From Acidobacteriales bacterium 13_1_40CM_3_55_5 (GTDB lineage Bacteria > Acidobacteriota > Terriglobia > Terriglobales > Acidobacteriaceae): DNA of 49,946 nt. The DNA lies in contig MNGW01000030.1 in the NCBI GenBank assembly GCA_001918935.1, positions 1 through 49,946 of the forward strand, read 5' to 3'. Below the pieces are notes generated by a model that did not search any database, had not been told where the DNA came from, and saw only the letters and a list, made by a program, of their open reading frames with translations. Shown piece by piece: positions 16,084-17,779 of the stretch. Made by a program: the position numbers and the translations under genes. Positions within the stretch are counted from its first letter, which is position 1, and each line of letters starts with the position of its first letter.

Positions 16084-16767
16084 ATGCAGATTACTGAAAT
16101 TTATAAATCAATCCAGGGTGAGTCCACGCATGCGGGTTTGCCATGCGTTTTCGTCCGGCTTACGGGATGTAACCTAAGGTGCTCCTGGTGCGACAGCGAG
16201 TACACCTTCACCGGTGGACGCCGCATGGCGCTCGATGAGGTCCTGGAAGAAGTGGAACGATTGAGCCCGGACGGCGGGCTAGTCGAGATCACTGGTGGTG
16301 AACCCATGCTGCAGGAGCGCGAGGCGATTCCCTTGATGCAGCGCCTACTCGATGCGGGTTATACGGTGCTGCTTGAAACCAGCGGTGAGCGTCCGTTGGC
16401 AGGTGTGCCGCCCGGGGTGATAAAGATCGTGGATGTGAAATGCCCAAACTCCGGCGAGCCCGAGACTTTTTATATGGAAAATCTGGACACATTAGGATTG
16501 CAGGACGAAGTGAAATTTGTGCTCAGTGATCGGAGCGATTATGAGTTCGCCCGCAATTTCGTGGAGCGTCACGCCCTGGACCGGCGCGTCAATGCTGTTC
16601 TTTTTTCGCCGGCTTTCCGCAAGGACGCAGAGGGGGACAGAGATTGTTCGCATTGTCTCCTGGATCCGCGTGAACTCGCCGAGTGGATGTTGGAGGACAA
16701 TTCGACGGCCCGGTTAGGGCTCCAAATCCATAAGTTCATCTGGGATCCAGCGCTGAAGGGCGTTTAG
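16084..16767 (+). CDS. queE: 7-carboxy-7-deazaguanine synthase (radical SAM)
   Basis: QueE is a radical S-adenosylmethionine enzyme that contracts 6-carboxytetrahydropterin to 7-carboxy-7-deazaguanine. The cluster motif is C29xxxC33xxC36 (TGCNLRCSWCDSEY). The SAM-binding segment follows as VEITGGEPMLQ and LLETSGERPL. The N-terminus MQITEIYKSIQGES is the classical start of the family, which supports ATG 16084 over an upstream TTG at 16072 that would overlap the queD stop. The enzyme acts between QueD and QueC in the pathway. A 320-bp gap with a palindromic element separates it from queC. Confidence 0.96.
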   Translation: MQITEIYKSIQGESTHAGLPCVFVRLTGCNLRCSWCDSEYTFTGGRRMALDEVLEEVERLSPDGGLVEITGGEPMLQEREAIPLMQRLLDAGYTVLLETSGERPLAGVPPGVIKIVDVKCPNSGEPETFYMENLDTLGLQDEVKFVLSDRSDYEFARNFVERHALDRRVNAVLFSPAFRKDAEGDRDCSHCLLDPRELAEWMLEDNSTARLGLQIHKFIWDPALKGV

Positions 16768-16829
16768 AGCCCAAGGCGGAATGAAGAAAAGAAATGGCAG
16801 AAGTCAGAATGCGCAGGTCAGAATTCGGA

Positions 16830-17016
16830 AAGTCAGAAGCACTGTGGAAGAGCGGCGCTTTAGCGCCGCGTCTGGCGACTTTAAATGGGGCTTTAGCCCT
16901 TGTGGAGGTGGTTGCGCCCGCGTGACACTACAAAGGCGACCACCAGGGCTAAAGCCCATCGTTGCTCCTTCGTAACGCGGCCCTGAAGGGCCGCTCTTCC
17001 ACGGTGCTACTGACTT
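16830..17016. repeat. MITE-like element with long imperfect inverted repeats
   Basis: The left arm AAGTCAGAAGCACTGTGGAA (from 16830, continuing through AGAGCGGCGCTTTAGCGCCG) is the imperfect reverse complement of the right arm at about 16974-17016. The arms are about 45 bp long. Each arm itself contains a palindrome: GCGGCGCTTTAGCGCCGC on the left and GCGGCCCTGAAGGGCCGC on the right. A second inner pair, GGGCTTTAGCCC and GGGCTAAAGCCC, is nested inside. No coding sequence lies within. The form resembles a small non-autonomous element or a REP-type palindromic cluster. Confidence 0.75.
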
Positions 17017-17042
17017 TTGACCTCTGAGTTCGTTAGTCTCAG

Positions 17043-17089
17043 GCATCTAAACTTACGCATCTAAACATGAGGCTGACCCGCATCTAAAC
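17043..17089 (+). repeat. Triple GCATCTAAAC repeat in the queC leader, with a six-codon mini-ORF
   Basis: GCATCTAAAC occurs at 17043-17052, 17057-17066 and 17080-17089. The last two copies are each followed by ATGAG; the third ATG is the queC start. The ATG at 17067 opens a six-codon frame (MRLTRI, stop TAA 17085-17087) ending 2 nt before queC. No standard Shine-Dalgarno precedes queC. Confidence 0.6.
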
Positions 17090-17779
17090 ATGAGAGACGG
17101 CAAACACCGCGCGGTTGTCCTGCTTAGCGGTGGCATGGATTCCTGCGTATGTGCCGCGTTGGCCAGACGGGACTACGCAACGGCGGCCGTCCACATCAGT
17201 TATGGACAAAGGACGGAACAACGCGAGCGCCTGGCATTTGACCGGGTCTGTGAGCGGTTAGGGATTTCCGATCGGCTGGTTGCACGCAATGAGGCGCTGC
17301 GGGCAGTGGGCGGCTCGGCCTTGACCGATCCTCGGATTGCAGTTCCCGAGGCGGCAGAAATCGGACGGGAAGTGCCAGTCACATATGTGCCGTTCCGCAA
17401 TGCGCACCTTTTGGCTGTGGCGGTAAGTTGGGCGGAGGTACTGGGCGCGGAGAAAATATATATCGGTGCGGTAGAGCAGGACAGCTCGGGATATCCCGAT
17501 TGCCGCCCGGCCTACTATCGGGCGTACAACGAAGTCATAAAGGCGGGCACGAAAGAAGGACGAATTGAGATCGTCACTCCGCTAATCGGCATGCGGAAGA
17601 GTGAGATTGTCAGGCTCGGTCTTGAATTGAACGCGCCCTTCGATTTAACGTGGTCTTGTTATAGCCGGGAAGACAGCGCCTGCGGCGTGTGCGATAGTTG
17701 CGTGCTGCGACTTCAGGCCTTTCATCAAGTTGGCGCGGCGGACCCGATTCCTTATGCCGAGCTTGTCCAGAGAGCTTGA
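17090..17779 (+). CDS. queC: 7-cyano-7-deazaguanine (preQ0) synthase
   Basis: QueC uses ATP and ammonia to turn 7-carboxy-7-deazaguanine into preQ0, the common precursor of queuosine and archaeosine-type bases. The PP-loop ATP-binding motif SGGMDS is at residues 13-18. A four-cysteine zinc site closes the protein: C190, C198, C201 and C204 (SCYSREDSACGVCDSC). The central VPFRNAHLLAVAVSWAE and GAVEQDSSGYPDCRP match the family. The length of 229 residues is normal. QueF and the queuosine-inserting enzymes are not in this window. Confidence 0.96.
   Translation: MRDGKHRAVVLLSGGMDSCVCAALARRDYATAAVHISYGQRTEQRERLAFDRVCERLGISDRLVARNEALRAVGGSALTDPRIAVPEAAEIGREVPVTYVPFRNAHLLAVAVSWAEVLGAEKIYIGAVEQDSSGYPDCRPAYYRAYNEVIKAGTKEGRIEIVTPLIGMRKSEIVRLGLELNAPFDLTWSCYSREDSACGVCDSCVLRLQAFHQVGAADPIPYAELVQRA

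Follow-up and report, generated by a model that had tools for sequence, protein, structure and literature searches.

The queE and queC genes of a queuosine cluster are separated here by a nested palindromic element, and this locus raises the question of whether such an element acts on the expression of queC or is a non-autonomous mobile sequence. The window, that is, the whole stretch of DNA that was analyzed, comprises 49,946 nucleotides. The genome that contains it is designated G000, the sister species is designated G001, and other G numbers denote other genomes of the same family. A preliminary description had reported imperfect inverted ends of about 45 bp, each with its own palindrome, and an inner pair forming a second nested level, all inside the queuosine cluster. 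This anatomy was borne out (Table 1). The neighbors were identified as queE and queC by a Radical_SAM match and PF06508, respectively. The outer inverted arms were 43 nt each, 88% complementary and 103 nt apart, and contained one outer hairpin each, GCGGCGCTTTAGCGCCGC on the left and GCGGCCCTGAAGGGCCGC on the right. The inner arms (16888-16905 and 16940-16957) were 18 nt long, 94% complementary, and contained the palindromes GGGCTTTAGCCC and GGGCTAAAGCCC, respectively. The core common to other copies extends approximately from one GTGG tag to the other, and the outer 13-15 nt of the window arms, beginning with AAAGTCAG, were private to this copy among the copies compared. These outermost segments (16829-16843 and 17003-17017) form an inverted repeat, AAAGTCAG..AGCAC, that extends the element on both sides and is not a target-site duplication.

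Table 1. Positions in the window of the element between queE and queC, its parts and its two neighboring genes
Feature	Position	Strand	Basis or remark
queE (7-carboxy-7-deazaguanine synthase), upstream neighbor	16084..16767	+	Radical_SAM match, tblastn
Left outer inverted arm, B-type end	16829..16871	+	B-type by sequence comparison
REPIN-like doublet core, GTGG tag to GTGG tag	16844..17002		Aligns end to end with 6 other doublets
GTGG guide-like tag, left arm (GTGG-AAGA-hairpin)	16844..16847	+	Conserved beside RAYT-flanking hairpins
Left outer hairpin GCGGCGC-TTTA-GCGCCGC	16852..16869	+	Pairs covary
Left inner palindrome GGGCTTTAGCCC	16888..16899		Repeat search, covariation
Central loop, long variant	16906..16939		Transposase gene at this place in RAYT-bearing relatives
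Right inner palindrome GGGCTAAAGCCC	16946..16957		Repeat search, covariation
Right outer inverted arm, A-type end	16975..17017	-	Sequence comparison
Right outer hairpin GCGGCCC-TGAA-GGGCCGC	16977..16994	-	Repeat search, covariation
GTGG guide-like tag, right arm	16999..17002	-	Tag search, doublet alignment
queC, downstream neighbor	17090..17779	+	Pfam PF06508, E 3.6e-68

The predicted DNA fold of the element had an energy of -66.7 kcal/mol compared to -33.0 in shuffles (z -11.0), and the RNA fold -120.9 compared to -69.1 (z -12.5); none of 200 shuffles was as low in either case. A chance origin is excluded because of these z-scores and because copies were found in the same genome with E values down to 5e-28.

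A very stable predicted RNA hairpin, lying in a 322-nt gap (queE stop to queC start) between two genes of one pathway, could act in cis within the queuosine operon and control queC, for instance as an attenuator or a transcript-stabilizing or processing hairpin, and REP elements elsewhere have been reported to stabilize or terminate transcripts (PMC6006769, in the part dealing with such roles). In contrast, no match to a transcription terminator or sigma-70 promoter was found in the element, and an Rfam search of it gave no match up to E 1, which ruled out a known structured RNA. The position also argues against such a control element. Among 61 genomes, 58 have queC, and 30 queC loci were fetched. 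The queE-queC order was present in 22 of these; in the other eight, queE was not found nearby (seven) or was on the other strand (one). The gap contained the full element in G000, a remnant consisting of one decayed A arm in G001, and no copy in any of the 20 other genomes of the same gene order. Moreover, the same sequence was found at unrelated places. A role as a cis-acting control element is thus considered very improbable, and the effect on queC expression that had initially been suggested is left unsupported, with neither a terminator, promoter or Rfam match nor a conserved position. In G007, which belongs to another genus, the queE-queC gap (L250) carries a different inverted repeat, GTCATCCCGAGCGAAGCGAGGGATCTTGG; therefore, repeats have entered this gap on more than one occasion.

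The element was found to belong to a repeat family. The G000 assembly (2.87 Mb in 175 contigs, 74% complete) gave 18 matching stretches in a DNA search, counting the query itself and matches to parts of an arm. Two of them were further full copies (C89:22094-22239 and C135:10922-11067) and most of the others were single arms, while the sister species (assembly 67% complete) contained four full copies. Copies were 75-90% alike, and the best same-genome match had an E value of 5e-28. Matches were obtained in 20 of 100 relatives, G000 and G001 included (18 others), and all 20 lay within the set of 60 that belonged to the same family; none of the 40 genomes outside the family matched (14 from elsewhere in the order and 26 from elsewhere in the class). 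When the 13-nt tag GTGGAAGAGCGGC was searched in 200 family genomes, 121 copies were counted in G122, 53 in G007, 20 in G001 and 14 in G000, compared to 0 or 1 for the reversed tag in these four genomes (0 in both G000 and G001). Many other family genomes contained just 0-3 copies, similar to the control. A longer exact pattern was present in at least 118 stretches in named genome contigs, and titles among the matches listed were Acidobacteria, Acidobacteriaceae, Acidobacteriales, Terriglobia and Sulfotelmatobacter. In G000, two single-arm copies (L005 and L006, on C169 and C29) were located at the same place upstream of two seemingly paralogous genes, 79% alike over 461 nt, and therefore part of the copy number may stem from segment duplication.

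The arms of this repeat have a fixed order: CCGTGGAAGA, an outer hairpin of the GCGGCCC or GCGGCGC type, approximately 18 nt, the inner hairpin GGGCTTYAGCCC, and GGTGG. Each arm opens with the GTGG tag, an AAGA spacer and the GC-rich outer hairpin, so that the tag is 4 nt off the hairpin and not at its foot. Across both genomes of the genus, type A arms carried GCGGCCC and a spacer starting with TTACGAAGG, and type B arms carried GCGGCGC and a spacer starting with TCAGACGGC; few arms were of other kinds. All seven head-to-head doublets (three in G000 and four in G001) consisted of one A and one B arm, aligned end to end, and had a unit length of approximately 140-165 bp with a long or short variant of the central loop. 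The doublet thus spread as a unit, because all seven pair A with B. One A and B pair in G001 (L056) was in the opposite arrangement, with the tags face to face, and single arms were mostly of the A type. Most A arms of G000 and G001 (e.g. L004, L005, L007 and L002) shared CCGTTTGCGC(TAACG) in the outside flank, which the window copy does not have; this sequence may be a favored target or may extend the element.

Base pairs of the hairpins were found to covary. In an alignment of 36 arms, which took in eight arms flanking RAYT genes in other genera and left out the weak arm L017, 97.2% of the cells paired, and there were 16 both-side changes compared to 3.5 in shuffles. Sliding the partner by 1-3 columns lowered pairing to 28-56%. 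Variation in the outer hairpin is under-counted here, because most arms of the genus were found through its 5' half; the inner hairpin played no part in the selection of arms. A GT[AG]G sequence near the hairpin foot (GTGG, 4 nt away) together with compensatory changes is what distinguishes GT[AG]G-tagged REPs, and both were present.

The positions of the repeat were patchy between the two species of the genus. One full copy of G001 (C70:17323) was absent from the orthologous G000 site, where 53 nt were found instead of 275 nt between flanks 85-86% alike; these flanks were too diverged to place the insertion point to the base, and a base-exact empty site was not obtained. At the C3/C25 site, G001 contained a full copy and G000 an A arm with a trace of the inner palindrome, the reverse of the situation between queE and queC. 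Partial copies were present in both species at two other sites (L006/L281 and L017/L277). For the full copy C89 of G000, the flanks gave repeat matches alone in the sister species and no orthologous locus. The movement is old and four sites were filled before the species split, because four of the five comparable sites were occupied in both species, with the copies decayed to differing degrees; these five sites gave no indication of recent movement. The two findings specified beforehand as speaking against mobility, a single-copy sequence and a position conserved in all relatives, both failed to appear.

No direct repeat or target-site duplication was seen flanking the doublets compared, as read from the alignment. 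Insertion of the IS200/RAYT type is not expected to leave flanking direct repeats, and the lack of a duplication fits such a process rather than that of a classical insertion sequence. This bears on the possibility that a classical DDE-type insertion sequence gave rise to the element as a MITE, whose 43-bp arms would be its terminal inverted repeats and which would be mobilized in trans, a reading that fits its general look of long terminal inverted repeats around a short non-coding core. Besides the missing duplication, the hairpins within each arm covary, which DDE ends do not need, and RAYT genes are flanked by the same ends in seven genomes (see below). A DDE-type MITE is thus regarded as very unlikely.

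The association with RAYT genes was examined at approximately 85 distinct Y1-type loci, some of them fragments, drawn from three sets of Y1_Tnp loci (33, 30 with three repeated from the first set, and 26 with two of one gene), with approximately 1.5 kb on each side and less at contig ends. Motif hairpins were located on both sides of a RAYT gene in seven genomes (G007, G122, G185, G049, G043, G011 and G229); in G229 the RAYT was frameshifted, with the gene split between two frames. A single motif copy was present near one further locus (L334 in G200), the remaining loci had no motif within about 1.5 kb, and shuffled and reversed sequence controls gave no matches. All six intact motif-flanked proteins scored 107.9-123 bits against NCBIfam NF047646 ('REP-associated tyrosine transposase'; cut-off 80) and contained the HUH, WQ and Y..NP motifs. 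At three loci (L214, L220 and L223; as a set, in genomes G011, G043 and G122) the order was outer-inner-RAYT-inner-outer, and the RAYT gene in these genomes occupied the place of the loop of the small element; the L223 gene was among those recovered with Pfam PF01797. The motif-flanked RAYTs were clustered on the protein tree (three changes; 2 of 500 shuffles were as low), short of demonstrably one clade.

A RAYT with matching ends was thus found in seven relatives but not in the window's own genome or in the sister species. G000 contained three Y1_Tnp genes and G001 contained two, none of them flanked by the motif (assemblies 74% and 67% complete, respectively). The three genes of G000 were rejected as the partner because each is flanked by other palindromes; one of them (L021, on C99) lies between CCTTTGCTGTTAGCAAAGG-type palindromes and represents another REP-like system. 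The sister RAYT L085 was likewise rejected, its flanking hairpins being TTTGAAAG-tagged and of another motif. In G182 and G200 (97-99% complete, 29-35 tags), no closely related motif-flanked RAYT was found among the loci examined. The partner RAYT of the genus may be missing from the assemblies or have been lost, and the genus probably possessed such a RAYT at one time.

The finding of RAYT genes between outer-inner and inner-outer arms resembling those of the small element brings in a further possibility, that RAYT gene and double-hairpin ends together make up a transposon in these bacteria, of which the window copy would be an internally deleted derivative. G122 and G007 each yielded a single RAYT copy of this type, which is what stationary REPtrons would show, so a multi-copy RAYT transposon was rejected; copies of the small element outnumber the RAYT copies by tens. 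A derivation by internal deletion is thus considered unlikely. A broader proposal would be that in soil Acidobacteria the RAYT and its unlike double-hairpin ends make up complete two-ended transposons, that the small doublets are internal deletions of them, and that tag, stem and transposase lineage have co-diversified. This proposal is equally doubtful; if true, REPtrons would be units that move or have moved, and the REP systems would form a large family.

The repeat is multi-copy, has an A+B unit and covarying hairpins, flanks RAYT genes and shows no target-site duplication; therefore, it is a REPIN/BIME-like, non-autonomous, RAYT-associated repeat. The element between queE and queC is very probably one such copy, a RAYT-mobilized inverted pair of unlike REP-like arms with B on the left and A on the right. 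The mobile element envisaged at the outset is accordingly well supported, by the genomic copies, the presence or absence of copies between species, and the RAYTs between matching hairpins in relatives. As in REPINs, an inverted REP pair forms one hairpin and is dispersed in many copies with the doublet as the unit; a specific RAYT with these REPs on either side was found in the seven family genomes and none in the window's genus. Weighing against this reading are the low likeness of the copies (75-90%), the tag set 4 nt off the hairpin, the lack of a matching RAYT in the two incomplete genomes of the genus and among the loci examined in G182 and G200, the occupancy of most comparable sites in both species, and the motif-flanked RAYTs falling short of one clade.

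The spread was probably brought about long ago by a small transposase. Judging from published RAYT work (the relevant parts of PMC6006769 and PMC3116915), a REP-associated tyrosine (HUH, Y1) transposase would recognize the GTGG tag and hairpin on single-stranded DNA and cut and rejoin there, and the doublet would be copied or moved to a new place, leaving no target-site duplication. In relatives from other genera, arms of this kind enclose the transposase gene itself. The insertion between queE and queC predates the split of the two species of the genus and is decaying, intact in G000 and with one arm left in the sister species.

When compared to known systems, the element belongs broadly with the REP elements of E. 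coli and Pseudomonas and is an old copy of a small dispersed repeat of soil Acidobacteria. It resembles the REPINs of Pseudomonas fluorescens, as described in PMC3116915, in its inverted doublet, variable spacer, single arms like decayed doublets, many dispersed copies and related hairpins flanking RAYT genes. It differs from them in having two hairpins per arm, two fixed arm types, and fewer and older copies in the genus. With the BIMEs and GTAG-type REPs of enterobacteria it shares tagged palindromes, inverted pairs of unlike arms (heterodimers) and a RAYT partner, according to accounts in PMC3733652 and PMC6006769, but its tag is GTGG, with 4 nt between tag and hairpin. PMC3733652 lists GTAG families from Proteobacteria, Cyanobacteria, Chloroflexi and the PVC group, and Acidobacteria are not named in that list. 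The element thus shows the testable features of REPINs and BIMEs with a GT[AG]G tag and differs by the 4-nt gap, the two hairpins per arm and the fixed unlike ends.

The general architecture is not new, because PMC3733652, in its section on TIRtrons, describes acidobacterial Y1 transposase genes (TIRYT genes of Koribacter and others) with long inverted repeats, some of them doubly palindromic and some recurring in the genome. The double inverted repeats beside P. putida 607 and P. fluorescens 4255 belong to the same comparison. The likeness to TIRtron repeats lies in their described architecture, and most of them are called unrelated to GTAG repeats in that section, in contrast to the GTGG/GTAG tag found here. 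The class 3 TnpA-Y1 structures outlined in PMC6006769 (approximately 600 in Solibacter usitatus) are likewise high-copy hairpins beside acidobacterial Y1 transposase genes, with a CnGA foot and a Y....Q motif compared to GTGG and Y..NP in the present case. No published description of this repeat was found in a literature search at the title and abstract level.

Other RAYT lineages of the family were associated with different flanking stems and with tags of their own (GTGGAAG, GTAGAAG, TTTGAAAG and CCGGGAAG). Sister RAYT lineages use GTAG, and the tags broadly track the protein tree when compared by eye. Across the loci L213-L242 and L065-L094, many RAYT/Y1_Tnp genes of the family had lineage-tagged hairpins on both sides, with GTAGAAG, TTTGAAAG, CCGGGAAG or TAG followed by CCCAGCGC. 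These genes and hairpins form a collection of REP-like systems still to be explored. A REP system that is linked to RAYTs, carries a GT[AG]G tag and has double-hairpin ends of unlike types is thus spread through one acidobacterial family. Tag and stem seem to be particular to each of several RAYT lineages there, so that the mutual recognition of RAYT and REP could be tested in a natural series.

For the queuosine cluster itself, the element is an ordinary insertion, and a RAYT-mobilized repeat implies no function for queE or queC. Between the element and queC there is another, smaller repeat of 16 nt, CGCATCTAAACATGAG, at 17056-17071 and 17079-17094, with a 75% copy at 17042, and it reaches into the queC start codon. 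CATCTAA-like words were also found upstream of queC in several other genera, and may represent a -10 box belonging to a leaderless transcript.
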